Source: Flavobacteriaceae bacterium (GTDB lineage: Bacteria; Bacteroidota; Bacteroidia; Flavobacteriales; Flavobacteriaceae). From it: a stretch of DNA of 37,974 bases. The stretch covers positions 1 to 37,974 of the forward strand of contig NZIQ01000008.1 of assembly GCA_002691685.1 (NCBI GenBank). Reading direction: 5' to 3'. A program made the translations under genes and the position numbers. Shown here piece by piece: positions 1 to 24,732 of this stretch (the first letter of the stretch is position 1; each line of letters begins with the position of its first letter). The notes under the pieces were generated by a model that worked only from the letters and a program-made list of their open reading frames with translations, did not search any database and had not been told where the DNA came from.

Positions 1-1134
1 ACCACCCTGGTCTGTATACACGTCGTTAGCATCTGAATTAAGAAGTACAGTATTTGATTGTGATTCCTCATCGAACCATTGGTACGTTTGAACAGTATTG
101 TCATCAGATCCTGCTAAAACAGTTAATGCACTTGATCTAAGTGAAGAATCTTGCCACGACAGAATAGCGTTACCGTCTGATCCGCCTGCTAATACAGTGT
201 TGTCAGACCCTCTTGAAAAATCACTATAATTATCTACAAAATTTCCGTCAGAATTCACTAATGCTGTTACCTGTGAAGTATTTCTAGACTCCCATGCAGT
301 TTGATATACATTATTATTATCAGACCCATATACTCCAATAAATGAAGATGTTCTGTAAGAATCATAAATTGGAAAAACGCCAAATGCTAACCAACCTTGC
401 TCTTGCTCGATAGTATTAAAATCTGATCCAGCTAAGTCAATCACGCTCTCATTTCTGTTTCCAATTTGAGTTTGATTGATAGAATTAACATCAGAGTCAT
501 AAAGACTTAAACTATTGAAGTTTCTATTTCCGAATTGGTTTGCATAAGAAACGTTATCATCAGACATGTAATAACCTGTTAGTGTAATATTTCTATTACC
601 GAAGGAATCTGCGCCGATAACTATATTTCCATTTGATCTCCACATTTCGATAGCATTGATATTACGATTACCAACTTGCCACTGAGAAACGTAATTGTCA
701 TCAGATCTAGTCATACTTTGTAACCCTAGGTTCAAATTACCAACTTGTAATGCTTCATTGAAATTACCATCTGATCCTCTACGCACAACAATACCTGAAG
801 CATTTGCTGAACCAACTTGTTCTACGTCTACTCCATTAGCATCAGAGCTTCTTGCTACTCTAACACCTGAAGCATTAAATAGTCCGTCTTGAGAAACAAC
901 TACTTCGTTATCATCAGAACGAGCATGAATTCTTACCCCTGAAAGGTTGAATCCACCAAGTTGAGAAACAGATACGTCATTATTATCAGATCTTCTTGTT
1001 AACAAAACCGCAGAACCGTTTGCTCCGCCATCTTGATTCACTGTTACCTCATTATCGTCAGAGCTCAAAAATGCTCCTACATATGAACCGTTAAATAGGC
1101 CCAATTGGTCGACGCTAACAATATTTCCGTCAGA
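1..1134 (-). repeat. Tandem SD-x-N protein repeats, 23-24 residues
   Basis: In the translated protein the unit-start serines fall at residues 51, 75, 99, 123, 147, 171, 194, 217 (SN instead of SD), 240, 264, 287, 321, 345, 369, 393 and 417. All steps are 23-24 residues except one of 34 (287 to 321), where an aromatic-rich stretch interrupts the array. At DNA level the units have drifted, so only a short ATCAGA-like word recurs about every 70 bases on the plus strand. Confidence 0.85.
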
Positions 1135-1284
1135 AACAATGTCAGCGATTGATGTGTTTGAATTTCCAGATTGCATTACATCAACCTCATTGTCATTACC
1201 GACAATGTCTACATCAGAATCATTGTTCTGTGCAACGGCAAAAGCTGCCATAAACACAAAAGCAAATGTCATTAGATTTTTCAT
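1..1284 (-). CDS. Secreted curlin-like repeat protein, 3' end beyond window
   Basis: The reading frame is open for 428 codons from the ATG at 1284 to the left edge of the window, so the C-terminus is missing. Residues 1-18 form a signal peptide with likely cleavage after AVA (residues 16-18). From residue 51 the protein is built of 23-24 residue units that begin SD-x-N. In the first half these continue x5-Q-x-G-x2-N-x-[SA]-x-[VI]. The part N-x5-Q-x-G-x2-N resembles the curlin repeat of CsgA/CsgB-type amyloid subunits (S-x5-Q-x-G-x2-N). After about residue 290 the Q-G-N positions decay but SD-x-N persists. I infer an extracellular beta-solenoid or amyloid fibre subunit, or an adhesin. No other curli gene (csgE, F or G) lies in the window, so the assignment rests on the repeat alone. 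Another beta-helical surface protein is possible. Confidence 0.75.
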   Translation of the reverse strand, partial: MKNLMTFAFVFMAAFAVAQNNDSDVDIVGNDNEVDVMQSGNSNTSIADIVSDGNIVSVDQLGLFNGSYVGAFLSSDDNEVTVNQDGGANGSAVLLTRRSDNNDVSVSQLGGFNLSGVRIHARSDDNEVVVSQDGLFNASGVRVARSSDANGVDVEQVGSANASGIVVRRGSDGNFNEALQVGNLNLGLQSMTRSDDNYVSQWQVGNRNINAIEMWRSNGNIVIGADSFGNRNITLTGYYMSDDNVSYANQFGNRNFNSLSLYDSDVNSINQTQIGNRNESVIDLAGSDFNTIEQEQGWLAFGVFPIYDSYRTSSFIGVYGSDNNNVYQTAWESRNTSQVTALVNSDGNFVDNYSDFSRGSDNTVLAGGSDGNAILSWQDSSLRSSALTVLAGSDDNTVQTYQWFDEESQSNTVLLNSDANDVYTDQGG

Positions 1285-1653: not shown

Positions 1654-1681
1654 AAACCCGAATCATTGATGATTCGGGTTT
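1651..1681 (-). terminator. Intrinsic terminator of the GMC operon
   Basis: Bases 1654-1665 (AAACCCGAATCA) pair with 1670-1681 around a four-base loop. Read on the minus strand, the hairpin runs into a T-tract (A run at 1651-1656 on the plus strand). It lies 21 bases after the stop codon of the gene at 1702-2352. Confidence 0.9.
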
Positions 1682-1701: not shown

Positions 1702-2352
1702 CTACAATGACCAAGCTCGGCCTTGAGTCAATTCTTGAACATCTGCACAGCCTACGTAAGGACCTGGTACTGGCAGATATGCCAATACTTCTTCACCTAT
1801 ATATTCTGTGTTTTTATAAGCGCTGATCGCAAGGTTTCGAATTTCATTAGCAAAGCTTCGAGCTGCAACCGCTTCTTCCAAAGAAGCCGCTTCACCATTC
1901 ATCTTTGCCATTTGATAAGTCTTTGAAGCTTCAGCATGCTTTTGAGCGGTTTCTTCATCTAACTCCCCGTAGAAGGAAGTCAAGGCATTAGCAATCATTT
2001 CATTATTCAAGTCATTTGCGCTGTCAACCTCAGACATAGATAATGTCTGATTCATGCACGCATTAAGTAACATTTGGACATCTGCCTTTCGGTCATCGTC
2101 AAAAGTGGCATTGGCCAACTCATCAATAAAAACATGTACATTAAGTTCTGTGGCGCTAGGTGTATCTGTCTTTGGTAACAAGACATCTAACATTCTGCCG
2201 ACAAACTCTCCCTGATCTTGAGTAAAGAATTTGGGTGTCCAATCTGCAAACTGGCTGTTTTGACAACTTTCGAGAATACCTAAGAAAGTTGGAGTAGCCA
2301 CGGCAAAGCCAAAAACTTTACCCATATTTTTAAGTGCGGTTCTTCTTTCCAT
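1702..2352 (-). CDS. Gluconate 2-dehydrogenase subunit 3 family protein (Tat small subunit)
   Basis: The 216-residue protein fits the small-subunit family that partners membrane or periplasmic GMC dehydrogenases (gluconate 2-dehydrogenase subunit 3, FAD-glucose dehydrogenase gamma subunit). Arg3-Arg4 followed by a hydrophobic stretch to about residue 27 looks like a twin-arginine signal. A DVLLPKTDTPSA segment (residues 56-67) matches the conserved 'P-x-T-D-T-P' region of the family. In known complexes this subunit carries the folded flavoprotein through the Tat pathway. The gene follows the GMC gene with a 2-base gap and ends the operon before a terminator. The GMC partner has no signal peptide of its own, which supports a carrier role. 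Confidence 0.85.
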   Translation of the reverse strand: MERRTALKNMGKVFGFAVATPTFLGILESCQNSQFADWTPKFFTQDQGEFVGRMLDVLLPKTDTPSATELNVHVFIDELANATFDDDRKADVQMLLNACMNQTLSMSEVDSANDLNNEMIANALTSFYGELDEETAQKHAEASKTYQMAKMNGEAASLEEAVAARSFANEIRNLAISAYKNTEYIGEEVLAYLPVPGPYVGCADVQELTQGRAWSL

Positions 2353-2354
2353 AA

Positions 2355-4079
2355 TTATATGTTTCCTTTTTTAAGTTCATTGACGGCATGATCAGCAGCT
2401 CTTGCTGTAAATGCCATATAGGTTAGTGAAGGGTTAACACATGCTCCTGAAGTCATAAATGCTCCGTCTGTTACATATACGTTTTTAACAGCATGTATTT
2501 GATTGTGTCCATTGACAACTGATGTTTTGGCATCTCTGCCCATACGAGCAGTACCCATTTCATGAATTCCGTTTCCGAATCCGTAATGCGCATCATAACC
2601 CATCACATCCTTGGCTCCGGCTTTTTTCAGCATTTCAACACCTTGATCTTGCATGTCTTTTCGCATGGCAAGTTCATTTTCTCTAATTTCAGCGTCAAAG
2701 GTTACTGTAGGAAGTCCCCATTGATCTAGAAGATCATAGTCTAACATCATTTTGTTCTCGTGATAAGGCAAAATCTCACCAAAAGCCGTCATTCCGATAT
2801 TCCATTGTCCTGGTTGGAAAATAGCATCTTTCAATTCTGCTCCAAAGCCTTTTGTTTCAGCAATTAATTCAGTGAAATTACCTCTACTCCCACCACCTTG
2901 ATAACCATAGCCTCTTTTAAACTCTTTCATATCAGTGCCGCCACCAATGTTTCTAAAACGAGGAATGTATAGTCCTGTCGGTCTTCGACCTTTGTAATAT
3001 TTATCTGCAAAACCATCAAAGCGACCCATGGCGCCTGCTTTAAAGTGGTGATCCATAATGTTGTGTCCTAATTCGCCAGAATCATTACCCATTCCATTGG
3101 GAAAACGATCTGATTTTGATTGCATTAAAATCGCAGTCGAGGCCACGGTTGATGCACACAAGAAAACGACCTTAGCCTTGAATTCAAAGGTCTCTTTAGT
3201 TTCTCTATCGATCACTTTTACACCTGTTGCTTTTTGAGTATCGGCGTCATACATGATTTCGTGTACAATAGAATCTGGTCGCAATGTCATGTTTCCTGTA
3301 GCTTCTGCTGCAGGCAATGTTGAACTATTACTACTAAAATAGGCTCCAAAAGGACATCCTCTTATACAACGGCTACGAGATTGACACCGAATACGCCCGT
3401 CTCCCTCAAATTTCTTATCACTATTGATGTGCGCTGTACGACCCATGGTCACTACTCGACCATCATCAAATCCTGATTCCACTTTTTTCCGAAAAACCTC
3501 TTCAACACAGTTATATTCAAAGGCGGGCTCAAAAACACCATCAGGTAATTGCTTTAATCCACGGTTTTCACCAGAAACTCCAATGTAAGCTTCTACTTTA
3601 TCGTACCAAGGCTTGATATCCTTGTATCTAATAGGCCAATCAACAGCGACACCTTCTCTTTTATTTGCAGTGAAATCGATATCACTATGCCTATAGGATT
3701 GTCTACCCCACATAATTGAACGACCACCTACATGATAACCCCGCATCCAATCGAATTGTTTGATTTCGTTGTATGGATGGTCGATATCATCTACAAACCA
3801 ATGCGCAGAAGACATTCTAGTGGTATATCCGGTGCGCGACTGTTTGGGTTGCCTTTTGAGCATTTCCTGGGAAGGGGTCTCTCCATTTGGATAGTCCCAA
3901 GGATCATTATTGGCAGTTGGATAATCTTCTCTGTGTTTTACCATCGGCCCTCTTTCAAGCACCAAGGTTTTTAATCCTTTCTCGCAGAGCTCTTTAGCGG
4001 CCCATCCACCACTGATTCCAGTTCCGACTACAATGGCGTCGTACGAGTCACGAGGATCGTTGTAATAAAATTTATTCAT
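2355..4079 (-). CDS. GMC family FAD oxidoreductase, probable glycoside 3-dehydrogenase
   Basis: The 574-residue flavoprotein has the FAD-binding GTGISGG motif at 19-25 with a following acidic residue (Glu42), a GGRSIMWGR stretch near 118-126, and the C-terminal GMC catalytic pair His506 (HEMGTARMG) and Asn549 (NPSLTYMA). Three cysteines (232, 238, 242; C-x5-C-x3-C) lie where related dehydrogenases with a small subunit hold an iron-sulfur cluster; this role is inferred. The family oxidises sugars and passes electrons to cytochromes or quinones. The DUF1080 and TIM-barrel genes across the divergent promoter suggest oxidation at C3 of a glucoside, like D-glucoside 3-dehydrogenase, rather than gluconate oxidation. 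There is no N-terminal signal; export probably depends on the Tat subunit encoded next. The substrate is unknown. Confidence 0.85.
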   Translation of the reverse strand: MNKFYYNDPRDSYDAIVVGTGISGGWAAKELCEKGLKTLVLERGPMVKHREDYPTANNDPWDYPNGETPSQEMLKRQPKQSRTGYTTRMSSAHWFVDDIDHPYNEIKQFDWMRGYHVGGRSIMWGRQSYRHSDIDFTANKREGVAVDWPIRYKDIKPWYDKVEAYIGVSGENRGLKQLPDGVFEPAFEYNCVEEVFRKKVESGFDDGRVVTMGRTAHINSDKKFEGDGRIRCQSRSRCIRGCPFGAYFSSNSSTLPAAEATGNMTLRPDSIVHEIMYDADTQKATGVKVIDRETKETFEFKAKVVFLCASTVASTAILMQSKSDRFPNGMGNDSGELGHNIMDHHFKAGAMGRFDGFADKYYKGRRPTGLYIPRFRNIGGGTDMKEFKRGYGYQGGGSRGNFTELIAETKGFGAELKDAIFQPGQWNIGMTAFGEILPYHENKMMLDYDLLDQWGLPTVTFDAEIRENELAMRKDMQDQGVEMLKKAGAKDVMGYDAHYGFGNGIHEMGTARMGRDAKTSVVNGHNQIHAVKNVYVTDGAFMTSGACVNPSLTYMAFTARAADHAVNELKKGNI

Positions 4080-4230
4080 ACTGTAAGTCTTCGGTTTAGA
4101 TTATTAAATGTATTAATTCTTAGTTAAATTTTCTACATTTATTTGAAAATCTGTTAGTTCGAATGAAAATCTTCTAATTTTCAAGTATGATTGTAGAATT
4201 ATCAACTGTAAAAATCAACAACTTAAACCG
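4080..4230. promoter_or_regulatory. Divergent promoter region of the sugar-oxidation cluster
   Basis: These 151 bases must carry the promoters of both the GMC operon (-) and the plus-strand operon. They hold a perfect inverted repeat, TGAAAAT (4164-4170) and ATTTTCA (4177-4183) with six bases between. The half-site core GAAAATCT recurs at 4145-4152, exactly 20 bases upstream of 4165-4172. The word TAAACCGA lies just upstream of both genes: 4224-4231 on the plus strand and, as its complement, 4091-4098. I found no textbook TAnnTTTG box in either direction. Confidence 0.5.
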
Positions 4231-5193
4231 ATGCTAAAATTTAATCTCACTTTTAAAAGCCTGCTGCTAGCAGCATTCATTAGTTTTACTTCTTGTAAAC
4301 AAAAAGAAACAACGGCCTCATCTGAAAAGACAACTCCAAAATATCAACTGTCTCTTGCGCAGTGGTCGATGAATAAACAAATCCGAAACGGAAGTATGGA
4401 TCCCTTTGACTTTGCCAAAAGGGCTAGTGAAATGGGTTTTGAGGGTATTGAATATGTCAATCAACTCTACCGACTACATTTTGAAGAGGCAGAAAGCCCT
4501 GAAGCAGGTATGCAATCTTTCATAGAAAAATCACTTGCAGAAAGTCAGGCTCACAATGTTCGCAATGTATTAATCATGATTGATGGAGAGGGTAACCTTT
4601 CAGCAGAAGATGAGACGGAACGCAATGAGGCTGTTGAAAACCACAAAAGATGGGTTGATGCTGCTGCAGCTCTTGAATGTCATTCTATTCGTGTCAATTT
4701 ACACGGAAGTTCCGATCCGGAAACCTGGATAAAAAATTCGGTGCTTGGTATGAAAGCACTTGGATCTTATGCCCTAGAAAAAAATATCAATATCATCGTA
4801 GAAAATCACGGTGGACTTTCTTCAAATGGGGCAAAACTCTCAGAAGTCTTAAAAGCCGTGGATATGCCCAATTGTGGCTCACTTCCTGATTTTGGAAACT
4901 TTTGTATGGCCTCAGAATACGGGAGTACAGGCGAGCGCACTTGTACAGATGAATACGACAAATACCTTGGTGTACAAGAATTAATGCCTTTTGCTAAAGC
5001 TGTAAGTGCCAAAACATACACCTTTGACGAGCAAGGTAACGAACGTAATATCGATTATGCCAAAATGATGGAAATTGTCAAAAATTCAGGCTACCAAGGT
5101 TTCATCGGTGTTGAATTTGAAGGTGATGAATTATCAGAAGAGGAAGGTATTATGGCAAGCAAAGCTCTTATTGAAAAATCACTTCTTCAATGA
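4231..5193 (+). CDS. Lipoprotein sugar phosphate isomerase/epimerase-like TIM barrel
   Basis: The 320-residue protein starts with a lipoprotein signal ending in FTSC (lipid cysteine 22), so it should act in the periplasm or at the cell surface. The rest fits the AP-endonuclease-2/xylose-isomerase-like TIM-barrel family. Expected metal ligands are visible as Glu191 (VENHGG), Asp220 (PDFGNF) and Glu295 (VEFEG). The usual histidine of the fourth position is not obvious; the matching strand reads SAKTYTF. In 3-keto-glycoside and C-glycoside pathways, barrels of this family act on the oxidised sugar by isomerisation, beta-elimination or hydration. It is first in an operon of six genes, and the next gene overlaps its stop (ATGA). 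The exact reaction is unknown. Confidence 0.8.
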   Translation: MLKFNLTFKSLLLAAFISFTSCKQKETTASSEKTTPKYQLSLAQWSMNKQIRNGSMDPFDFAKRASEMGFEGIEYVNQLYRLHFEEAESPEAGMQSFIEKSLAESQAHNVRNVLIMIDGEGNLSAEDETERNEAVENHKRWVDAAAALECHSIRVNLHGSSDPETWIKNSVLGMKALGSYALEKNINIIVENHGGLSSNGAKLSEVLKAVDMPNCGSLPDFGNFCMASEYGSTGERTCTDEYDKYLGVQELMPFAKAVSAKTYTFDEQGNERNIDYAKMMEIVKNSGYQGFIGVEFEGDELSEEEGIMASKALIEKSLLQ

Positions 5194-6413
5194 AAAATAG
5201 CACTCGATTACAATTATCCCTAATGATGTTTTTAGAATTTTTCATTTGGGGTGGATGGTTTGTAACCTTTGGTATTTTTCTCAGTGAAAATTTGGGTGCT
5301 AGTGGAGCAGAAGCCTCCAAGGCTTTTTCTACACAATCTTGGGGTGCCATTCTAGCTCCTTTTATTATTGGGCTCATTGCTGATCGATTTTTTAACGCCG
5401 AACGCATTTTGGGCATACTTCACTTAATAGGGGCTTTTTTGATGTATCAAATGTCACAAATAACCTCTTTTGAAGTGTTTTACCCTTATGTTCTCGGTTA
5501 TATGATTGCCTATATGCCTACTCTGGCCTTGGTAAATTCGATTTCATTTAATCAAATGAGTGACACCGCCAAAGAATTTTCGAGTATAAGAGTTTTTGGA
5601 ACTGTCGGTTGGATTTTGTCTGGAATGGCTATTTCGTATCTATTTCAGTGGGATAATCAAGAAGCTATCGCAGAAGGTGCAATGAAAAACACTTTTTTAA
5701 TGACAGCTGCCGCCTCAGCTGTTTTAGGTATTTTTAGTTTTACTCTTCCCAAAACTCCACCTTCTACACAGAAAGAAAATGTCAGTTTGGTCAAAATACT
5801 AGGATTAGATGCCTTGAGTTTATTGAAAGAGCGCAACTTTTTAATCTTTTTTATTGCCTCTGTTTTGATATGTATCCCGCTGGCATTTTACTATCAAAAC
5901 GCAGCTCCTTTTTTAAGTGAAATTGGCATGGCTAATCCCGCAGCTAAAATGTCAATAGGTCAAATTTCAGAAGCCTTATTCATACTAGCGCTACCCGTTT
6001 TTTTCAAACGATTTGGTTTCAAAAAAACCATTTTGATTGGAATGCTTGCTTGGGGAATTCGTTACATGCTTTTTGCCTACGGAGATGTTGATGAAAAAGC
6101 CTTTATGCTGCTTATTGGTATTGCACTGCACGGTATTTGTTATGATTTCTTTTTTGTTTCCGGACAAATTTATACCGATGCCAAGGCAAGTGAAGAAAAC
6201 AAAAGTGCTGCTCAAGGTCTTATAACCCTAGCTACTTACGGAGTAGGAATGCTTATAGGATTTGAGATAGCTGGAGGTATAGCTGATTACTATCTGGTCG
6301 ATGAATTACACGATTGGAAAAGTATATGGAAGGCACCTGCACTATTTGCAGTTTTGGTATTTGTCTTATTCAGCCTTACTTTTAAAAATGAAAAAATAGA
6401 CTACAACTCTTAA
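5190..6413 (+). CDS. MFS transporter of the nucleoside:H+ symporter (NupG-like) type
   Basis: The 407-residue protein is hydrophobic, with about twelve predicted membrane segments. Its start, with FFIWGGWFVTFG at about residues 12-23, resembles the first helix of NupG/XapB-type nucleoside:proton symporters. A basic loop and a DRFFNAER segment follow the second helix. The gene overlaps the upstream lipoprotein gene by four bases and lies ten bases before the oxidoreductase gene. No nucleoside gene is nearby, so I infer that it brings the oxidised sugar or its cleavage product from periplasm to cytoplasm. The nucleoside label often given to this family would then be misleading here. Confidence 0.8.
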   Translation: MKNSTRLQLSLMMFLEFFIWGGWFVTFGIFLSENLGASGAEASKAFSTQSWGAILAPFIIGLIADRFFNAERILGILHLIGAFLMYQMSQITSFEVFYPYVLGYMIAYMPTLALVNSISFNQMSDTAKEFSSIRVFGTVGWILSGMAISYLFQWDNQEAIAEGAMKNTFLMTAAASAVLGIFSFTLPKTPPSTQKENVSLVKILGLDALSLLKERNFLIFFIASVLICIPLAFYYQNAAPFLSEIGMANPAAKMSIGQISEALFILALPVFFKRFGFKKTILIGMLAWGIRYMLFAYGDVDEKAFMLLIGIALHGICYDFFFVSGQIYTDAKASEENKSAAQGLITLATYGVGMLIGFEIAGGIADYYLVDELHDWKSIWKAPALFAVLVFVLFSLTFKNEKIDYNS

Positions 6414-6423
6414 TAAACTAAAA

Positions 6424-7563
6424 ATGCCTAAAAGAATAAAATTAGGAATACTTGGAGGCGGTGGCGACTCTCTAATCGGAATCGTTCATCGAATAGCCGC
6501 TTATATGCACGATGATTACGAAATCATCGGAGGTGTTTTTAATCCAGATAAAGCCATCAGTCTTGAATTTGCAGAAGAGATTGATATTCCAACGAATCGC
6601 ATCTATGCCACTGTAGAAGAGCTTGTAGAAGAAGAATTAAAACTACCCGAAGGAGAGCGCGTTGAAGTGGTCAGTATTTTAACGCCTAACTTTCTACACT
6701 TTCCGATGGCTAAAACCCTTATGCAAGCGGGAATAAACGTAATTTGTGAAAAGCCGATGACCACGACACACGAAGAGGCCAAAGAGCTGTTAGCAATTCA
6801 GCAAGAAAAAAATGTCCTTTTTGCTCTAACTCATACCTACACAGGATATCCGATGGTTAGGCAAATGAGACAAATGATCAAAGCTGGTCTTATCGGCAAG
6901 GTGCAAAAACTAGATGCGCAATACTATCAAGGGTGGATCAATCCTATTATTCACGATGAAGAAAAACGCAAGGCAACTTGGAGACTAGACCCAAAAAAAT
7001 CGGGTATAAGCTGCTGTATTGGTGATATTGGAACTCATGCCTTTCAGATGCTCGAATACACCTCTGGCCTTAAGATAAAAAGCATTTTAGCTGACTTTAA
7101 CCATGTATATGGTGACAATGAAATGGATGTAGACGGAACCGTACTTATACGTGTTGAAGATCATGTAAAAGGGGTTATTCGTGCTTCTCAAATTGCAACC
7201 GCCGAAGAAAACAACTTTACTGTGGCCATTTACGGTAAAACAGGAGCTTTAAAATGGGAACAAGAAAATCCCAACTACCTCTACTTCTTTCAAGAAGGCA
7301 AACCTTTACAATTACTCAAACCCGGTCATCAGTATAATTTTGAGCAATCCTTAGAAGCGTCTAAAATCCCTCCTGGACATCCAGAAGGTATTTTTGATGC
7401 CATGGGTAATATATACCGAGGAATGGCCAAAGCTATCAGAGGCGAAGAAGTAGACTCAGGGGCTTATCCCGGTATTCATGACGGTGTACGTGGATTGAAT
7501 TTTATAGAAGCTACCGTTGCATCGCATGGCCAAGGAAATGTTTGGATTAAACTAGACGACTAA
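6424..7563 (+). CDS. Gfo/Idh/MocA family NAD(P)-dependent oxidoreductase
   Basis: The 379-residue protein has an N-terminal Rossmann fold with a glycine-rich loop (GILGGGGDS, residues 8-16). It has the family motif EKP with catalytic Lys110 and the GDIGTHAFQ segment giving Asp201 and His205. The C-terminal half is the mixed sheet domain that binds the sugar. Members oxidise or reduce cyclic sugars and inositols, including interconversion of glucosides with 3-keto forms. With the GMC enzyme doing the first oxidation outside, this enzyme probably reduces the 3-keto sugar in the cytoplasm. A second oxidation step is also possible. There is no signal peptide. Confidence 0.85.
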   Translation: MPKRIKLGILGGGGDSLIGIVHRIAAYMHDDYEIIGGVFNPDKAISLEFAEEIDIPTNRIYATVEELVEEELKLPEGERVEVVSILTPNFLHFPMAKTLMQAGINVICEKPMTTTHEEAKELLAIQQEKNVLFALTHTYTGYPMVRQMRQMIKAGLIGKVQKLDAQYYQGWINPIIHDEEKRKATWRLDPKKSGISCCIGDIGTHAFQMLEYTSGLKIKSILADFNHVYGDNEMDVDGTVLIRVEDHVKGVIRASQIATAEENNFTVAIYGKTGALKWEQENPNYLYFFQEGKPLQLLKPGHQYNFEQSLEASKIPPGHPEGIFDAMGNIYRGMAKAIRGEEVDSGAYPGIHDGVRGLNFIEATVASHGQGNVWIKLDD

Positions 7564-7572
7564 ATATAAACT

Positions 7573-8625
7573 ATGAAAACAATTAAAGGACCTGCAGTCT
7601 TTCTGGCTCAGTTTGTGGACAGTAAAGCGCCCTTTAACACCTTGGACGGAATGTGCAAGTGGGCTGCAGATTTAGGCTATAAAGGAATTCAAATCCCAAC
7701 ATGGGAGCACTTTTTAATCGATTTAGATTTGGCTGCCGAAAGTCAAACCTATTGCGACGATTTAAAAGGAAAAGTCAATTCTTACGGACTTGAAATCACA
7801 GAACTTTCTACACACCTTCAGGGGCAATTGGTTGCGGTGCATCCAGCTTATGACATTATGTTTGATAATTTTGCGCCTGATGCGGTAAAAAACAATCCTA
7901 AGGCGAGAACTGAATGGGCTATTCAAACTGTTAAAAAAGCAGCAACAGCCTCTCGAAGATTGGGTATAAAAGCACACGCTACCTTCTCTGGAGCGTTGTT
8001 GTGGCATACCGCACACCCTTGGCCGCAACGACCACCTGGTTTAGTAGAAACGGGATTTGCGGAACTAGCTAAAAGGTGGATGCCTATTTTGAATCATTTC
8101 GATGAAGAGGGTGTAGATGTGTGTTATGAAGTTCACCCAGGTGAAGATATCCACGACGGAGACACTTTTGAGCGTTTCTTAGAAGCTACAGGGAATCACA
8201 AAAGGGTAAATATTCTCTATGACCCAAGCCATTTTATACTCCAACAATTGGACTACATCACCTATATCGACCATTATCACGAGTTTATCAAATCTTTTCA
8301 CGTGAAAGATTCAGAGTTCAATCCTACTGGGAAAAAAGGAGCATTTGGAGGTTATAACGACTGGCAAGATCGAGCCGGACGTTACCGTTCTCTAGGTGAT
8401 GGTCAAATAGATTTTGCGACTATCTTTTCGAAACTGACCCAATACGGATGTGATGTTTGGGCGGTTATGGAATGGGAGTGTTGTATTAAAAGTCCTGAAC
8501 AAGGAGCCCGTGAAGGCGCACAATTTATCGCAAAACACATTATAGAAGCCACAGAAAAAACGTTCGACGATTTTGCTGGTGGCGATTTAGATCAACAAAA
8601 ACTCAACAATATTTTAGGAATATGA
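7573..8625 (+). CDS. Cytoplasmic sugar phosphate isomerase/epimerase-like TIM barrel
   Basis: The 350-residue protein has no signal peptide. Four metal ligands typical of the AP-endonuclease-2/xylose-isomerase-like family are visible: Glu186 (YEVHPG), Asp217 (YDPSHF), His243 (FHVKD) and Glu300 (VMEWE). It is a different subfamily from the lipoprotein barrel at 4231-5193 and keeps the histidine that the latter seems to lack. The gene lies nine bases after the Gfo/Idh/MocA gene and overlaps the following lipoprotein gene by four bases. A role in isomerising, dehydrating or cleaving a 3-keto sugar in the cytoplasm is inferred from context. Confidence 0.82.
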   Translation: MKTIKGPAVFLAQFVDSKAPFNTLDGMCKWAADLGYKGIQIPTWEHFLIDLDLAAESQTYCDDLKGKVNSYGLEITELSTHLQGQLVAVHPAYDIMFDNFAPDAVKNNPKARTEWAIQTVKKAATASRRLGIKAHATFSGALLWHTAHPWPQRPPGLVETGFAELAKRWMPILNHFDEEGVDVCYEVHPGEDIHDGDTFERFLEATGNHKRVNILYDPSHFILQQLDYITYIDHYHEFIKSFHVKDSEFNPTGKKGAFGGYNDWQDRAGRYRSLGDGQIDFATIFSKLTQYGCDVWAVMEWECCIKSPEQGAREGAQFIAKHIIEATEKTFDDFAGGDLDQQKLNNILGI

Positions 8626-9365
8626 AAACAATAGTATTGAGCACATTAGCCGCTTTAGTAATGCTAGGATGCAAGAACAACGCAAAACAAACAGAAGAAA
8701 AAACATCAATGGCTACTAATAAAGAAACAACCTCTTTAGAATGGGAAACCTTGTTTGACGGAACTTCATTTGACAACTGGAAAGTATACAATGGAGGCGA
8801 GGTGGTTGAACCATGGAGTATCGAAGAAGGTGCAATGGTATTTAATCCTCCTACTGAACGACCAGAAGGTGCAACCTATAACTTGATTTCTAAAAACAAG
8901 TATACCAATTTCGTGCTATCAATGGAATGGAGGATTGCAGAAGGAGGGAATAGTGGAATATTTTGGGGCATTCACGAATCTAAAGACTTCTTTGCGCCCT
9001 ATCAAACCGGTCCTGAAATTCAAGTCCTCGACAATGAGAGACATCCAGATTCAAAAAATGGCCTCAATAGACATGCAGGAGCCCTTTACGACATGGTAGA
9101 ACCAAGTGAAGATGTCACTAAACCTGTCGGTGAATGGAACAGTTGCACCATAAAAATTGACCACGTAAATAACATTGGTGAGGTTACTCTAAACGGAACT
9201 GTAATTGTAAGTTTCGCTGTTGACGGAAGTGCGTGGGACGATATGGTCGCCAATTCAAAATTCGCAACTTGGGAAGACTTTGGCGCATATCCTGATGGAC
9301 ACATCGGTGTACAAGATCACGGAGATGGCGTAGCTTACAGAAACATTAAAATCGCGAAATTATAA
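8622..9365 (+). CDS. DUF1080 (3-keto-disaccharide hydrolase family) lipoprotein
   Basis: The 247-residue protein has a lipoprotein signal with cysteine 17 (VMLGC). It then shows a full set of DUF1080 landmarks: LFDGTSFDNWK, LSMEWRIAEGGNSGIFW, PEIQVLDN, GEWNSCTIKI and HIGVQDHGDGVAYRNIKI. This concanavalin-like fold family includes enzymes that hydrolyse or eliminate 3-keto-glycosides. Its place beside a GMC dehydrogenase supports that reaction on the periplasmic or outer face. It overlaps the upstream gene (ATGA) and the next one by one base (TAATG), so all are probably translated together. Confidence 0.85.
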   Translation: MKTIVLSTLAALVMLGCKNNAKQTEEKTSMATNKETTSLEWETLFDGTSFDNWKVYNGGEVVEPWSIEEGAMVFNPPTERPEGATYNLISKNKYTNFVLSMEWRIAEGGNSGIFWGIHESKDFFAPYQTGPEIQVLDNERHPDSKNGLNRHAGALYDMVEPSEDVTKPVGEWNSCTIKIDHVNNIGEVTLNGTVIVSFAVDGSAWDDMVANSKFATWEDFGAYPDGHIGVQDHGDGVAYRNIKIAKL

Positions 9366-10180
9366 TGAAAAAAGGATTCGTATTGTTAAGCTTAGTCTTA
9401 GGTTTATTTTTCACCTCATGTGGAACAGCACAAGACGAAGAAGCAATAAGTAATGTCAATACCTCAAACCCTTTTGGATTGTTCGAAGGTGAAGAACCTA
9501 CGACTCCTAATAAAACGGAGTTTTATGAGCCTGTACCTCCTAGAGTTCGTCCCGGAGAATCGGGACTTCCTCCATCAGATGCCATCGTTTTATTTGACGG
9601 AAGTGATTTAGAACAGTGGCGGAGTTCAGTGACTCAAGGGCCAGCTCAATGGATGCTTAACGACGACGGCAGTATGACAGTAAAAGACAAGTCGGGTGAT
9701 ATCGAGACTAAAGAACACTTTGGGAGTATTCAATTACATCTTGAATGGAGGTCACCCAGTGAAATACAAGGCTCTAATCAATCCAGAGGAAACAGCGGTG
9801 TTTTTCTTCAAGGCCTCTATGAAGTTCAGGTTCTTGACAACAACGATAACCCTACATATGTGAATGGTCAAGTGGCTTCAGTCTATAAACAGTCTGTACC
9901 TCTTGCCATGGCTTCCGTGCCTTCTGGTGAGTGGAATTCCTATGATATTATTTATCATAAGCCAGAGTTTAATGCTCAAGGCGACAAAACGAAATCGGCA
10001 ACGATAACCGTACTTCACAATGGAATCTTAGTTCAAGATCATTTTAAAATATTAGGTACTACCCAATACATTGGATGGCCAAAAAACAACCCGCATGGGG
10101 ATGGTCCGCTAATTTTACAAGACCATGCAGATGAGTCGCGAGTTAGCTATAGAAACATTTGGATTAGGCCTTTAGATTGA
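9365..10180 (+). CDS. Second DUF1080 (3-keto-disaccharide hydrolase family) lipoprotein
   Basis: The 271-residue protein has a signal ending in FTSC (cysteine 19) and a proline-rich linker of about 55 residues. The DUF1080 domain carries LFDGSDLEQWR, LHLEWRSP, RGNSGVFLQG, YEVQVLDN, GEWNSYDI and LQDHADESRVSYRNIW. It differs clearly from the copy just upstream: it has inserts after LDN and in the C-terminal half, so the two may act on different linkages or steps. It is the last gene of the operon. No terminator is visible; the next promoter begins inside its stop codon. Confidence 0.85.
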   Translation: MKKGFVLLSLVLGLFFTSCGTAQDEEAISNVNTSNPFGLFEGEEPTTPNKTEFYEPVPPRVRPGESGLPPSDAIVLFDGSDLEQWRSSVTQGPAQWMLNDDGSMTVKDKSGDIETKEHFGSIQLHLEWRSPSEIQGSNQSRGNSGVFLQGLYEVQVLDNNDNPTYVNGQVASVYKQSVPLAMASVPSGEWNSYDIIYHKPEFNAQGDKTKSATITVLHNGILVQDHFKILGTTQYIGWPKNNPHGDGPLILQDHADESRVSYRNIWIRPLD

Positions 10181-18685: not shown

Positions 18686-18722
18686 AACAAAAAAGGTCCG
18701 AAACAATTCGGACCTTTTTTTT
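18686..18722. terminator. Bidirectional terminator
   Basis: Bases 18689-18702 pair with 18707-18720 around loop ACAA; the core is GGTCCGAA/TTCGGACC. An A run on one side and a T run on the other let it act for the MORN-type gene (+) and for the RND operon (-), whose last stop codon touches it. Confidence 0.92.
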
Positions 18723-21700
18723 ATGAAGCCATAACTGTTTGTTGTGGCTTTTTTAGTACTCTTAATTTGAGGCGATAACTGATGTGAAATAAGACTGGCA
18801 CAATAATTAATGTGAGGAAGGTTGCGATGACCAAACCAAAAATCACTGTCCAAGCCAAGGGCCCCCAGAATATAACGTTGTCTCCACCTACATAAATTTT
18901 AGGATCAAAATCAGCCATTAGACTGATGAAGTTGATGTTTAAACCGATAGCTAAAGGAATCAGTCCCAGTACTGTTGTAACCGCTGTGAGGATTACCGGT
19001 CTTAAACGTGCCTTACCCGCCTGAATAACACAATGGGTAAATTCAGTAATCCCCAAATAATCTTTAGCTCCACAACCCAATTCCTCTTTTTTTCGCTGAA
19101 TTAAGATATCGGCATAATCCAAAAGCACGACCCCGTTATTCACCACGATTCCAGCTAGAGCGATGATACCCATCATGGTCATCATAATGACAAAGGGCCA
19201 ACCTGTAAGCATCAATCCTCCGAAAACACCTATAAGGCTAAAGAAGATAGCAATCATTATAATAATGGGCTTTGAAAGACCCTTAAATTGGAAAATCAAA
19301 ATCAACATGATTAGGCCAAGGCCTGTAAAAAATGCGCCTATCAAAAAGTCTTGTTGTTTATTCTGCTCTTCGATTTGTCCTGTGTAATCGATGGAAACTC
19401 CTCTCGGAAAAGCTTCAAATCCTTTCATGTGCTCTTGAATTTCAGCAACAATTTCAACGGCATTTCCTCCTGGTTTTAATCCAGAATAAAGGCTTACTAC
19501 TCGTTCACCGTCTTTGTGTTTAATCGCACTAAAGGTCGAGGTGTTTTTACTCGAAGCCAAAGCAGAAATGGGAATCTCTTTAATTTGACCATCAGCCATA
19601 TCTCTAAAGATGACGCGCTGATCAAAAAGTGCAGAATTGTTATAGCGCTGTTCTTGATTAAATCTGACGTTGATGTCATAGTCTTCTCCTTCTTTCTTGT
19701 ACACCCCAGCTTTGTCTCCAAATAATGACCTGCGAAGCTGCATTCCAATTTGGCCCACAGCGACATTTAGTTCTCCGGCCTTTTGACGATTCACCTGGAC
19801 CTCCATTGAAGGTTTGTCTTTGTTGACATCTACTTTGAGACCTTCCATTCCGGCCACATTTTTCTTATTGATAAATACACTGATGCGTTCGGCAATGCTA
19901 ATCAGCGTATCGTAATTCTCACCCTCTAATTCAATATTTACAGGATAGCCTGAAGGTGGTTCAACCAAGTCTTTCTCGACTGAAATCGTAACCCCTGGAT
20001 AGATTCCAGCGAGTTCTTCTTGAATCTGTTTTCTCAGAGTCTCAGAATTTAATCCCTTCCTAAATTTAAACTCTTTCATACCTAAGGTAATTTTTCCTCG
20101 GTGTGGCATATCAGAAATTAAACCTGTTTCTGTAAATGGATTTTCAGCACCTCGACCGACTTGGGCAATATTGTATTCGACGAGTTCATTTTCATTTTCT
20201 ACGATATAAGCATCGTCCTTGACGATTTTAGCCACACGCTTTTCAATTGCTTTGGTAATCGCATTGGTTTTTTCTATTGCGGTACCCTGTGGGTATTCGA
20301 TATAGACGAAAATTTGATTGGGAATGTTATCTGGAAAAAACTCAATCTTCGTTCTACCACTGCCCACAGAAGCTCCAAAACTCATAAAGGCCGCGATGAG
20401 TAACATCAAGGTGGTTGCAAAAAAGAAATAGACGTTTCTTCCTCTGAGTGCAAATTTCAATTGTTTCTCGTAAAAGTTTTCGAAACGCACCAAGATAATG
20501 GTCTGAAATTTATACGCCCAACCACGAATCCCGTAACGGTATATCCAAAACATGGCTGAAACAACGATCATTAGGGTTCCAAGACCTCTAAGTGGCCCTC
20601 CAATTAAAATGATAAACAGGCCAAAACCTCCAAAAATCGAAGTCATTCTCACTAGTGTTTTAAAAGGGATAACAGTATCTCCAACAGTCATAAACTTTGA
20701 AACCAACATCGAATTGATAAATATGGCCACAAAAAGTGAAGAACCTAATACCACTGAGAGCGTAATAGGGAAAAAGATCATGAATTGCCCCATAACCCCT
20801 GGCCATAGACCTAAGGGAACAAAAGCTGCCACCGTAGTCGCTGTAGAAATAATAATAGGTACTGCAATTTCGCCGATTCCCTGTTTCGCAGCTTGAATGC
20901 GACTCATTCCCTCTTGTTCCATCAAACGATAGACATTTTCAACCACCACTACTCCGTTGTCTACCAACATTCCTAAGCCCATAATTAACCCGAATAAAAT
21001 CATGGTGTTCAGCGTATAGCCCAAAGCACTGAGAATCATAAAAGACATAAACATCGACATCGGAATAGCGAAACCGACAAAAATGGCGTTTTTGAATCCT
21101 AAAAAGAACATCAAAACACCTACCACAAGTATAATTCCAAAAATGATATTGTTAACCAAATCATCTACTTGACTCAAGGTTCTTTCACTGGAATCGTTAG
21201 TAATACTCAGATCGAGATTAGGTGGAAAATAATTAACTCTTGCCTCTTCTACAATGGCTCTAATTTTTTCAGAAGCTTTGATGGCATTTGCTCCAGAACG
21301 CTTTTTGATATCGAGCATTACCACACTTTGGCCTTTCTCTCGGGCATAAGTAGTTGTCTCTTTTGGCTTGAATTTCACCTCTGCGATATCTTTCAAATAA
21401 ACAGCTCCGCGTTCAGATTTCACCACAAACTCTTCGAGCTCTACAGGCTTTTGAATCTCTCCCAAAACCCGTATGGTTCGACGTTGTCCGCTGTTGACTA
21501 AATTACCTGCAGAGAGTGTCATATTTCCGTTGCGAATACTATTGATGACATCGTCAAAACTTACCTGTGCAGACATCATTTTATAAATGTCTACGCCGAC
21601 CTCCACTTCTTTGTCTTGAACACCCCTGAGATCTACGCCCTTAACCTCTTCTACTTTTTCAATATCGTCTTCTAGATATTCTGCAAAGGCCTTGAGTTGT

Positions 21701-22203
21701 TCTACACGATAATCTCCACTCAGATTTACATTTAATAGCGGTAGAGCTTCTGATATGTTAAGATCGAATACACTTGGTTCGACCTTAGCTCCATTGAAGA
21801 CGGGCCAATCTTCTGAGGCTTTTTCTGCATCAACCTCGTCTTTTACCCGTTGCTCGGCTTCAGGAATCGAAAGCTCTTGATCAAATTCAACAGTTATAAT
21901 CGCATAATCTTCTTGAGAAGTAGAAACTACTTCAACCACATCTGAGATGTTTTTCAATCGATCTTCTAGGGGATCGGTTATAAGACGTTCCATGTCTTCT
22001 GCCGTATTTCCTGGATAGATCGTACTGATGAAAATCTTAGTCTCTTTTACTTCGGGGAATTCCTCTCTTGGCATAGAGAGGTATGAAGAAACCCCGATAA
22101 ACAAAAAGATTGAAATCATGACATAGATTACCGATGGATTATCTATGGCCCATGAAGAAGGCTTAAATTCTTTTATTTTGTGTTTTAAATTATCCATTTT
22201 CAT
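18721..22203 (-). CDS. RND efflux transporter, inner-membrane permease
   Basis: The 1160-residue proton-driven pump has the first membrane helix at about 24-44, a large periplasmic loop, a helix bundle holding GLIMGLGMLVDNGVVVVEN (the proton-relay Asp motif, about residues 400-420), and a repeat of this plan in the second half. It belongs to the AcrB/CzcA superfamily; the substrate cannot be told from sequence. The extra length over AcrB comes mainly from additional membrane and loop sequence near residues 520-600. It is last in the operon and overlaps the adaptor gene by one base. Confidence 0.92.
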   Translation of the reverse strand: MKMDNLKHKIKEFKPSSWAIDNPSVIYVMISIFLFIGVSSYLSMPREEFPEVKETKIFISTIYPGNTAEDMERLITDPLEDRLKNISDVVEVVSTSQEDYAIITVEFDQELSIPEAEQRVKDEVDAEKASEDWPVFNGAKVEPSVFDLNISEALPLLNVNLSGDYRVEQLKAFAEYLEDDIEKVEEVKGVDLRGVQDKEVEVGVDIYKMMSAQVSFDDVINSIRNGNMTLSAGNLVNSGQRRTIRVLGEIQKPVELEEFVVKSERGAVYLKDIAEVKFKPKETTTYAREKGQSVVMLDIKKRSGANAIKASEKIRAIVEEARVNYFPPNLDLSITNDSSERTLSQVDDLVNNIIFGIILVVGVLMFFLGFKNAIFVGFAIPMSMFMSFMILSALGYTLNTMILFGLIMGLGMLVDNGVVVVENVYRLMEQEGMSRIQAAKQGIGEIAVPIIISTATTVAAFVPLGLWPGVMGQFMIFFPITLSVVLGSSLFVAIFINSMLVSKFMTVGDTVIPFKTLVRMTSIFGGFGLFIILIGGPLRGLGTLMIVVSAMFWIYRYGIRGWAYKFQTIILVRFENFYEKQLKFALRGRNVYFFFATTLMLLIAAFMSFGASVGSGRTKIEFFPDNIPNQIFVYIEYPQGTAIEKTNAITKAIEKRVAKIVKDDAYIVENENELVEYNIAQVGRGAENPFTETGLISDMPHRGKITLGMKEFKFRKGLNSETLRKQIQEELAGIYPGVTISVEKDLVEPPSGYPVNIELEGENYDTLISIAERISVFINKKNVAGMEGLKVDVNKDKPSMEVQVNRQKAGELNVAVGQIGMQLRRSLFGDKAGVYKKEGEDYDINVRFNQEQRYNNSALFDQRVIFRDMADGQIKEIPISALASSKNTSTFSAIKHKDGERVVSLYSGLKPGGNAVEIVAEIQEHMKGFEAFPRGVSIDYTGQIEEQNKQQDFLIGAFFTGLGLIMLILIFQFKGLSKPIIIMIAIFFSLIGVFGGLMLTGWPFVIMMTMMGIIALAGIVVNNGVVLLDYADILIQRKKEELGCGAKDYLGITEFTHCVIQAGKARLRPVILTAVTTVLGLIPLAIGLNINFISLMADFDPKIYVGGDNVIFWGPLAWTVIFGLVIATFLTLIIVPVLFHISYRLKLRVLKKPQQTVMAS

Positions 22204-23369
22204 TAGTCTAGGCTACTTACAATTTCAACTTCTTGATTGTCTCTGACTCTACGTGCTCCCTCTGCGACTAAACGATCGCCAACCGCTATTCCCGAAATCA
22301 CTTCCATAAGGTCGCCTTGGGATTTTCCGGTCTCAACGATACGTCTTTGCACAATGCTTTTGTTATTCTCGTTTTCGATCACGTATACAAATTGATTACC
22401 CTCGGCATTTTCTGAGAGTAAACTTTGAGGAATCAATACGGCATTTTCATTGAAGTAATCACGAATCTGAACCTTGGCTGTTAGATTCGGCTTGATGTCT
22501 TTATTTTCGTTATTGAGCTTCACTTGGGCTTTGAAAGATCTATTACCTGGATTGACAAAACTTCCCGTATGGTGGATAGCTGTTTCAACTGTTCTATTCA
22601 AAACAGGAATAAATACCTTGGTTTTTGTACCGTTCACTACAGTAGCCACATAGGCTTCTGGCACATCGACCTCAAGGTACATTTCAGTGAGGTTGACTAC
22701 CCGAAAAAGTGCAGAGCCAGCGCCGGGTGCAACCACTGCCCCTTCTTCAAAAAATACCTTGTCTATTCTACCTGTAAAAGGAGCGTAAGCCTTTGATTTT
22801 TTCAGTTGCTGTTCTAAGGATGCTTTGGCTTGAACACTCGCTTCATAAGCAGTCTTTGCCTGCAAAAACTGAATTTCAGAACCAATTTTTTGATTCCATA
22901 AACGTTCTTGTCGCTCAAAAGTAGTCTTGGCCAATGCGAGTTGAGCTTCGAGTTGGGTCAATTGGCTTGACATTCCCCCATCGTCTACACTTGCAATTAA
23001 CTGTCCTTTTCGGACAGTCTGTCCTTCCTTGACGTAAACCTTTTTTAAAGTTCCGGGCATTTGAGGATAGACCAATAAGTTTTGCTTGGTTTGAACACTC
23101 CCTTGTAATTCAATATAATGTTCGAAAGGTTGATTCGTTACTTCAAAAACACTGACTAGCGCAAGTGAACCCTTTTCGCCCATGTTGGAGATGGCGTCAT
23201 CTAGCAATTCAATCTGTTTTTCAATTATAAGTTTTTCTTCTGTAAGCATTGCTCTTGTTCCTCTAAGCTCAACAAGGTTTCTGTCTTCAATGAGTTGCTC
23301 AACCGATTTTTGTTTATCGGCACATGCCGCAAATAACAATAGTGCAAATAATGTTTTGATGTGTTTCAT
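22203..23369 (-). CDS. RND efflux adaptor (HlyD/AcrA family), lipoprotein
   Basis: The 388-residue membrane-fusion protein has a lipoprotein signal with cysteine 16 (LFAAC). A helical hairpin of about 80 residues lies between the two lipoyl half-motifs (VYVKEGQTVRKGQLIASVD and KAYAPFTGRIDKVFFEEG), followed by beta-barrel and membrane-proximal domains. It links the pump to the TolC-like channel. It lies 16 bases downstream of the tolC-like gene. Confidence 0.92.
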   Translation of the reverse strand: MKHIKTLFALLLFAACADKQKSVEQLIEDRNLVELRGTRAMLTEEKLIIEKQIELLDDAISNMGEKGSLALVSVFEVTNQPFEHYIELQGSVQTKQNLLVYPQMPGTLKKVYVKEGQTVRKGQLIASVDDGGMSSQLTQLEAQLALAKTTFERQERLWNQKIGSEIQFLQAKTAYEASVQAKASLEQQLKKSKAYAPFTGRIDKVFFEEGAVVAPGAGSALFRVVNLTEMYLEVDVPEAYVATVVNGTKTKVFIPVLNRTVETAIHHTGSFVNPGNRSFKAQVKLNNENKDIKPNLTAKVQIRDYFNENAVLIPQSLLSENAEGNQFVYVIENENNKSIVQRRIVETGKSQGDLMEVISGIAVGDRLVAEGARRVRDNQEVEIVSSLD

Positions 23370-23385
23370 ATTTTTTGATTGATTA

Positions 23386-24726: not shown

Positions 24727-24732
24727 TCTGAT

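Follow-up and report, generated by a model that had tools for sequence, protein, structure and literature searches.

A flavobacterial gene cluster predicted to degrade glycosides by oxidation, elimination, hydration and reduction on two sides of the cytoplasmic membrane

Introduction

How a flavobacterium might take a glycoside apart with redox enzymes, TIM barrels and DUF1080 lipoproteins is the question raised by positions 1702-10180 of contig NZIQ01000008.1 of a Flavobacteriaceae bacterium (GenBank assembly GCA_002691685.1). The whole contig of 37,974 nucleotides is called the window below; it is contig C40 of a 2.1-Mb assembly, 82.5% complete. Its eight genes of interest (Table 1) encode a GMC flavoprotein dehydrogenase (GMC), a small subunit with a twin-arginine translocation (Tat) signal (TatS), two TIM barrels (TIM1 and TIM2), a permease of the major facilitator superfamily (MFS), a Gfo/Idh/MocA oxidoreductase (GFO) and two DUF1080 lipoproteins (DUFa and DUFb). 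An earlier note, made from the letters of this DNA, had read them as a complete-looking set for the oxidation of a glycoside at C3 outside the cytoplasmic membrane, its cleavage there by the DUF1080 proteins, and the import and reduction of the keto sugar. The eight-gene set is real: all open reading frames (ORFs) were intact at these positions, and searches of the window for PF06439, PF13618, PF01261, PF01408 and the GMC families matched all of them, every Pfam assignment of the eight genes scoring above its gathering cut-off. As the earlier note had also said, the interval 1702-10180 contains no gene for a regulator, SusCD or a classical glycosidase.

The reading preferred here, which we consider probable, is a two-compartment route that oxidises, eliminates, hydrates and reduces. 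In the order that we infer, the GMC protein and TatS, exported together, would act first, oxidising a glucosyl (or similar) residue at C3 outside the cytoplasmic membrane and handing the electrons over, probably to a c-type cytochrome whose gene lies elsewhere. The 3-keto-glycoside would be cut outside by TIM1 through metal-assisted beta-elimination, giving 2-hydroxy-3-keto-glucal and the aglycone, and by the DUF1080 lipoproteins through elimination, probably followed by hydration. The permease, of the PF03825 family, would bring in the released glucal and/or 3-keto-sugar. In the cytoplasm TIM2 would convert the glucal by hydration into 3-keto-glucose, which GFO would reduce to glucose with NAD(P)H.

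TIM2 as a Probable Glucal Hydratase

The most secure point of the scheme is TIM2, which on its sequence is very probably the hydratase of the elimination product. Its residues 1-349 align with PDB entry 8ro4 (546 bits, E 3.3e-163). The deposited name of this entry is "2-hydroxy-3-keto-glucal hydratase", and it is likely to be the Agrobacterium tumefaciens hydratase AtHYD itself; it is this end-to-end match that makes the assignment. Conserved positions are E186-x-H188, D217, H243 and E302; TIM2 shares 64-67% identity with plasmid-borne homologues from Rhizobium, Croceicoccus, Pseudoalteromonas and Hymenobacter, and the E-x-H, Asp, His and Glu are invariant. By a simple home-made rule, 78 of 79 TIM2 homologues have no export signal. 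The earlier note had called this barrel isomerase-like, a description that gives way to that of a hydratase for an unsaturated elimination product; cleavage in this cluster would thus proceed at least partly by beta-elimination and, with a hydratase that carries no export signal, the cluster has the appearance of a pathway of oxidation, elimination, hydration and reduction divided by the membrane.

Such a pathway has a precedent in A. tumefaciens, where one operon encodes two 'isomerases' and a Gfo enzyme along with GlycDH; C3 oxidation, beta-elimination, hydration and reduction to glucose are described for it (Bitter et al., 2023, PMC10628242). According to that paper, the purified eliminase AtOGE (structure 8bvk) releases 2-hydroxy-3-keto-D-glucal, and the AtHYD step is given as 'preliminary evidence'.

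What the GMC, Gfo and TIM genes serve to oxidise might instead be a cyclitol or a free sugar, after the manner of IolE and IolG in inositol breakdown, with no glycoside cleaved. Weak similarity of this kind exists, TIM2 scoring 62 bits with the IolE model (cut-off 290) and GFO 52 bits with the IolG model (cut-off 355), but these scores lie far below the cut-offs, TIM2 matches the glucal hydratase vastly better, and two DUF1080 genes stand in the same-strand run with GFO and TIM2. An inositol pathway was rejected on the scores, and the wider reading is very improbable.

Conservation of the Cluster in Relatives

Candidate loci in relatives were ranked by similarity to TIM2, and the 80 loci named here are the best 80 of 594, so that counts on them are conditional on TIM2 and on closeness. 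They come from Maribacter, Zobellia, Cellulophaga, Aquimarina, Polaribacter and others, with some Saprospiraceae, Cytophagales and Balneolaceae. Locus L027 is an extension of L026, L142, which had no annotation, was left out of the analysis, L139 (Pantoea) was read as a gene table only, and loci L025-L044, which partly overlap the named loci, were not added to the counts. Found by TIM2 alone, 59 of the 80 named loci carry a GMC gene on the same stretch. For presence counts the window was added (81 loci) and 22 loci with short flanks were left out; eight of the remaining 59 were without GMC. The resulting 51 GMC-bearing loci, window included, contain GFO in 51 cases, TatS in 50, TIM1 in 48 and any DUF1080 gene in 47, while a permease is represented by a homologue of the window protein in 35, by another MFS protein in 15 and by either in 46. 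In Zunongwangia mangrovi (L093) and Christiangramia sediminis (L101), two culturable relatives, the gene order is that of the window apart from DUFb.

Co-occurrence was also examined in 60 genomes, the window's included, a test independent of choosing loci by TIM2. GMC of at least 45% identity and TIM2 occurred together, as a marker pair, in 26 of these sampled genomes of the family, presumably Flavobacteriaceae, GMC only in three (G013, G025, G047), TIM2 only in one (G036), and neither in 30 (Fisher p 2e-12). Linkage in the named loci and co-occurrence across genomes place the gene grouping beyond chance.

Median identities to the window proteins, calculated without the window from those 59 of the named loci that have both GMC and TIM2 (n 29-59), were 84% for TIM2, 69 for GMC, 69 for the permease, 64 for GFO and 61 for DUFb, followed by the less conserved DUFa (51), TIM1 (51) and TatS (35). 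The 285-codon gene at 10222, which comes after the rightward unit and is presumably that of YicC, had 52. TIM2 is the most conserved gene and exceeded this neighbour in 39 of 39 pairs, as did GMC. Such a pattern, suggestive at most, would be expected if many aglycones feed one intermediate, with a slowly changing hydratase and faster-changing cleaving enzymes.

Of the 51 GMC-bearing loci, 10 have a gene for an AraC-type regulator within the divergent gap or close to it, the window not among them. A gene of this kind stands in the gap at L044:10835-11884 and in L034, L041 and L042. Pfam, applied to the L044 protein only, gave an AraC-type assignment, with a cupin match below its cut-off. It is a likely regulator, and the window copy of the cluster lacks it.

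The Oxidation End

The best solved relatives of GMC are the large subunits of fructose and glucose dehydrogenases (FDH and GDH). It carries the flavin adenine dinucleotide motif and C232-x5-C238-x3-C242, presumably the 3Fe-4S ligand pattern of FDH/GDH; these cysteines are kept in 72, 72 and 73 of 73 homologues, respectively, the misses being an X. H506 and N549, which we assume to be the catalytic-type residues of GMC proteins, are kept in 73 of 73. These residues fit an enzyme that hands its electrons on, a dehydrogenase and not an oxidase. The N-terminus of TatS holds ERRTALK, and by the home-made rule a Tat-like RR is present in 55 of 57 TatS homologues of the clusters, 52 of them with a lipobox-like Cys; the window protein scored as Tat without lipobox. 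Family, signal and gene order support the earlier proposal of C3 oxidation outside the membrane by GMC and its Tat subunit.

Among the 80 named loci, nine have a gene for a cytochrome c of about 160 amino acids (one copy read as 94) in the cluster or at most one gene away from it, in three arrangements. In L069 the gene lies upstream of GMC and runs in the same direction, in L082 it closes the DUF1080 unit, and in six loci (L070-L072, L077, L078, L080) it converges with TatS; in L068 it is one gene further off. The tenth case, L129, has a cytochrome-like ORF after TIM2, and cytochrome c genes are also present in the Hymenobacter, Sphingomonas and Xanthomonas clusters. The homologue in the window genome (PF00034) is on contig C87 and is 44-58% identical to the nine locus cytochromes.

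Two observations were made beside these genes. The window genome has a second GMC gene (L021, G000:C3:11144-12826), 61% identical and without a hydratase or DUF1080 homologue in 19.9 kb. Beside TatS, L025 (11491-12405) and 14 of the 51 GMC-bearing loci, the window not among them, have a Tat-exported TIM barrel that is hydroxypyruvate-isomerase-like below the cut-off, with homologues at 42% in the Sphingomonas and Catenovulum clusters.

Candidate Cleaving Enzymes

The role of the first TIM barrel had been missed in the earlier note: TIM1 is an exported lipoprotein and a second candidate cleaving enzyme besides the DUF1080 proteins. By profile search its closest characterised relatives are 3-keto-C-glycoside eliminases, seven of nine PDB matches at E<1e-6 being C-glycoside-deglycosidase entries and the other two 4ovx and Art22. 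Residues E191-N-H193, D220, K261, E295 and E297 are invariant across 36 sequences, and E191-x-H193 agrees with the Glu ligand and catalytic His described for C-glycoside eliminases (CGE; PMC10628242). The predicted structure (predicted local distance difference test score 91.6) is nearest to the uncharacterised 4ovx (VIA Z 41.4, root-mean-square deviation (rmsd) 1.4, 267 residues aligned) and next to Art22 (Z 29.3); the DgpC/CGD entries, which cleave 3-keto-C-glycosides, range from 7exz (Z 27.2, rmsd 2.8, 258 aligned) down to 24.4, at 16-22% identity between TIM1 and CGE in the fold alignments. That TIM1 acts as an exported eliminase of 3-keto-glycosides is a possibility to which we would give somewhat less than even weight, and O-glycosides would be the likelier substrate. 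No description of the flavobacterial TIM1 variant was found in literature coverage that mostly excluded subscription journals.

On a Croceicoccus plasmid an unsignalled TIM barrel (L046:3978-5392) adjoins a CGDB (PF19906) subunit on the same stretch as a hydratase and a GMC gene; the record holds three PF19906 genes, apparently a cytoplasmic C-glycoside route on a plasmid.

DUFa and DUFb, which are exported and have a lipobox by the home-made rule, represent two DUF1080 subfamilies, with best PDB matches to 3h3l (DUFa, others being 8rr2 and 8tda) and 4qhz (DUFb, E 2e-79). The C-terminal QDH motif is widely kept, with H233 of DUFa found as QDH-type in 48 of 50 homologues and H254 of DUFb in 35 of 36. 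Outside cleavage with DUF1080 lipoproteins taking part, as the earlier note had it, is supported by family, signal and gene order.

Reduction, Import and the Proposed Division Between Compartments

GFO is 34-42% identical to 11 of 12 plasmid-encoded Gfo proteins clustered with a hydratase homologue, and 26% to the twelfth (Xanthomonas). Among the named loci with GMC, 56 of 59 have the GFO gene on the TIM2 strand and no more than three ORFs upstream of it, and the export signal is absent in 73 of 74 GFO homologues. We propose from its sequence and setting that GFO is a cytoplasmic 3-keto-glucose reductase, working in the direction of reduction. Homologues of the PF03825 permease are present in the clusters of Hymenobacter (57%) and Xanthomonas (51%); on the simplest reading, this permease carries the cleavage product across the membrane. 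Import and inside reduction by the Gfo/Idh/MocA enzyme are supported by family, signal and gene order; the identity of the cargo may have to be widened from the keto sugar alone, as 2-hydroxy-3-keto-glucal is the imported species with a chance that we put just short of even.

The membrane split was compared with eight GMC-bearing plasmid loci, six of which (Pseudoalteromonas, Hymenobacter, Sphingomonas, Ketogulonicigenium, Xanthomonas and Palleronia) have OGE homologues. All seven of their OGE homologues begin, by eye, with Sec- or Tat-like signals, while those of two ATP-binding cassette (ABC) transporter loci without GMC (Rhizobium, Phaeobacter) have no export signal. The His-x-His of AtOGE is kept in all nine, and the Ketogulonicigenium protein matches 8bvk at E 1.5e-94. 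The Catenovulum GMC locus has no OGE homologue or hydratase in its stretch, and that of Croceicoccus combines GMC and hydratase with the barrel next to PF19906. The comparison suggests that hydration and reduction stay inside and that cleavage mostly moves to the compartment of the dehydrogenase. The lipoprotein signal assigned by rule to TIM1 (49 of 55), DUFa (42 of 50) and DUFb (24 of 36) points the same way for the flavobacterial loci. The full arrangement, in which many Flavobacteriaceae would cut glycosides by beta-elimination outside the inner membrane with the membrane-anchored, CGE-related TIM1 lipoprotein, the PF03825 protein, nominally a nucleoside permease, would carry the reactive glucal to a cytoplasmic hydratase and reductase that turn it into glucose, and the aglycone, toxic or not, would stay outside, is a tentative picture, less likely than not and more doubtful than either of its parts.

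Two simple rules were rejected. One made DUF1080 and OGE mutually exclusive. It was true of Rhizobium and Phaeobacter, whose OGE loci are of the ABC type, but five others (Xanthomonas, Palleronia, Sphingomonas, Hymenobacter and Pseudoalteromonas) combine a DUF1080 gene with an OGE-like one. The other rule paired GMC with MFS permeases and reserved ABC transporters for loci without GMC; it fails in Ketogulonicigenium and Palleronia, where GMC accompanies an ABC transporter.

The Bacteroides thetaiotaomicron BT2156-BT2160 region had been named as the parallel for the locus, and it is not the closest one. Its BT2158 is described as a periplasmic glycoside 3-dehydrogenase (PMC11300592), and a system of that type would combine a periplasmic Gfo/Idh/MocA dehydrogenase with DUF1080. 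DUF1080 is indeed common to both, and the window genome has BT_2158_fam-related Gfo genes beside DUF1080 on contigs C23 and C63. The likely dehydrogenase of the locus, however, is the GMC protein, and GFO has no export signal and reaches only 30.6 bits with BT_2158_fam (cut-off 750) and 18.7 with BT_2159_fam (cut-off 650), far below both. Identity with BT2156-BT2160 was rejected on these scores, and that the locus is of this type is hardly to be believed. The two other loci (L022:8763-11489, G000:C23; L023:8098-10828, G000:C63) each have DUF1080 beside a Gfo/Idh/MocA gene whose product has a signal-like N-terminus and scores 268 (C23) and 157 (C63) bits with BT_2158_fam at the same cut-off; routes of the Bacteroides type and of the GMC type may exist side by side in this genome.

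Evidence Weighing Against the Proposed Route

Several observations speak against the two-compartment elimination route or one of its steps. For TIM1, sugar epimerases interleave with the CGE entries among the fold matches (epimerase-like 3wqo Z 26.9, others about 25), so fold alone leaves its function undecided. The Glu-x-His pattern is nonspecific, as TIM2 has it in E186-x-H188, and the TIM1 consensus reads K-S-Y where AtOGE has a His as its third metal ligand. PF19906, the beta subunit of CGE, gave no match in the window genome, at its 82.5% completeness (the positive control W01 gave three matches). AtOGE (8bvk) is not among the 50 matches listed for TIM1 in structure searches, from which no conclusion is drawn. 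Given the shared E-x-H, the different third ligand and the lack of PF19906, TIM1 was not filed as a CGE.

TIM2 is kept in three GMC-bearing loci without TIM1 (L072, L076, L084) and in four without DUF1080 in the stretch (L077, L110, L112, L115), so neither of them alone explains it. Hydratase homologues of Pseudosulfitobacter, Azospirillum and Paracoccus lie beside Gfo and ABC genes, and that of Pantoea beside an MFS gene without Gfo, with no GMC, DUF1080 or recognised eliminase within about 7 kb in any of the four. The electron path is likewise affected: no CxxCH protein (c-type cytochrome) is encoded in the window's cluster, and a close match to the C87-family cytochrome (E<1e-20) showed no association with GMC, being present in 20 of the 29 genomes that have a close GMC and in 21 of the 31 that lack one. 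A specific partnership with GMC was therefore set aside, and the cytochrome is a candidate partner only. Export signals, finally, were called by the home-made lipobox/Tat rule (named loci and window) or by eye, not by SignalP.

The DUF1080 proteins bring in the most serious competitor, which is close to the earlier note: net hydrolysis outside by DUF1080, import and reduction of the free 3-keto-sugar, and TIM1 and TIM2 as ordinary epimerases or isomerases. Their QDH His is kept, and with it they may themselves carry net hydrolysis to its end on the outside, in which case less would be left for TIM2. Price et al. (2022, PMC9007349) read lacABC with DUF1080 as net hydrolysis, BT2157 being a 3-ketotrehalose hydrolase. 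In B. thetaiotaomicron, the H275N variant of a lyase for 3-keto-O-glycosides is described as 'deficient in hydration activity' (PMC13273386), which implies that hydration as well as elimination is carried out by the wild type. If this lyase is the DUF1080 protein BT2157 (290 amino acids), and if 3osd (265 amino acids) corresponds to its residues 27-290, H275 would fall on the QDH His kept in DUFa and DUFb; DUF1080 alone could then release 3-keto-glucose for part of the flux. On the other side, a full-length hydratase match and the genome-wide co-occurrence of TIM2 with GMC would be needless under pure outside hydrolysis, and in Pedobacter none of 10 DUF1080 genes had a lactose phenotype, whereas the putative lactose dehydrogenase had one (the authors suggest redundancy; PMC9007349). 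Net hydrolysis in this form is unlikely, and the elimination route is retained.

Relation to Known Systems

The elimination pathway (Agrobacterium) and the LacABC plus DUF1080 cluster (Caulobacter and others) are already published, and the locus is a new arrangement of a known pathway. With the Agrobacterium GlycDH-OGE-HYD-Gfo system it shares, by families and residues, a GMC dehydrogenase with its Tat protein, a hydratase orthologue and a Gfo reductase beside it, for which the same four steps are proposed. Unlike that system, it has in the place of OGE a lipoprotein CGE-like TIM barrel, two DUF1080 lipoproteins and the PF03825 permease. An AtOGE-family eliminase was found neither in the window locus nor in any of the 51 GMC-bearing loci (BLASTP 1e-6, best match per ORF) with a library of the Rhizobium OGE homologue (E 7.5e-35 to 8bvk) and further OGE-like proteins.

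The Caulobacter cluster contains lacABC, a DUF1080 gene with signal peptide, a transporter, two epimerases and a reductase; clusters like it are reported in Halomonas, Algoriphagus and Indibacter, together with a lactose dehydrogenase with phenotypes in Pedobacter, and the fate of 3-ketogalactose is left open by the authors (PMC9007349). The window locus resembles it in having dehydrogenase subunits beside DUF1080, a transporter, two epimerase-like proteins and a reductase, TIM1 and TIM2 appearing, when compared by description, as counterparts of the two epimerases. It differs in having no gene for LacC, which we take to be the cytochrome c subunit, and to this extent the set is not as complete as the earlier note had found it to look. 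With the C-glycoside eliminases (PuCGE, i.e., DgpB/DgpC, and CGD) TIM1 has in common the TIM fold, profile similarity and E-x-H; it differs as an exported lipoprotein with no PF19906 beta subunit. BT2156-BT2160 shares DUF1080, and is set apart by its Gfo families, to which GFO does not belong, and by a dehydrogenase that is not a GMC protein.

What the analysis adds to the published systems is that one 'epimerase' appears to be a glucal hydratase and the other a candidate exported eliminase, together with the predicted membrane split and the breadth within the family; a candidate cytochrome, untied to the cluster, and an AraC-type regulator in relatives are further additions. Candidate functions are thereby offered for four poorly annotated kinds of genes: lipoprotein TIM barrels, 'sugar phosphate isomerase/epimerase' proteins of the 8ro4 kind, PF03825 permeases beside Gfo, and paired DUF1080 lipoproteins. 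The predicted non-glycosidase route to glucose would be missed by glycoside hydrolase searches, and it would involve an unusual transported intermediate.

Organisation of the Locus

GMC and TatS are directed leftward (4079-1702) and the other six genes rightward (4231-10180). The overlaps of 1-4 bases given in the earlier note hold for three of the six same-strand junctions (4, 4 and 1 bases), the rest having gaps of 2, 10 and 9 bases. The terminator-like hairpin downstream of TatS, a consensus match only, has the longest stem among 12 such sites (7.4 expected). The sigma-70 promoter scan was at background, with 24 sites found and 21.8 expected.

Table 1. Genes and other features of the locus; positions are those of the window.
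Feature	Position	Strand	Description
Intrinsic-terminator-like hairpin	1654-1681	-	12 bp stem + T run, directly downstream of TatS gene
TatS, gluconate 2-dehydrogenase subunit 3-like Tat subunit	1702-2352	-	216 aa; Gluconate_2-dh3/PF13618 61 bits
GMC flavoprotein dehydrogenase	2355-4079	-	574 aa; GMC_oxred_C 70 bits, GMC_oxred_N 53 bits (PF00732/PF05199)
Divergent intergenic region	4080-4230		151 bases; separates the two units
TIM1, lipoprotein TIM barrel	4231-5193	+	320 aa; AP_endonuc_2/PF01261 89 bits
MFS permease, nucleoside H+ symporter family	5190-6413	+	407 aa; Nuc_H_symport/PF03825 398 bits
GFO, Gfo/Idh/MocA oxidoreductase	6424-7563	+	379 aa; GFO_IDH_MocA 77 bits; PF01408/PF22725
TIM2, predicted cytoplasmic hydratase orthologue	7573-8625	+	350 aa; AP_endonuc_2 132 bits
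DUFa, DUF1080 lipoprotein	8622-9365	+	247 aa; 3keto-disac_hyd/PF06439 154 bits (cut-off 26.8)
DUFb, DUF1080 lipoprotein of second subfamily	9365-10180	+	271 aa; PF06439 128 bits (cut-off 26.8)

Elsewhere in the window, positions 1-1284 (- strand) encode a curlin-associated repeat protein (PF07012, 44 bits), apparently a curli-like fibre subunit, whose frame leaves the contig at its left end. Positions 18721-25329 (- strand) hold a run of four ORFs of 1160, 388, 446 and 198 amino acids; in L032 a run of similar sizes (1157, 387, 454 and 202 amino acids) is found next to the cluster, its longest product looking, by eye, like a resistance-nodulation-division efflux pump.

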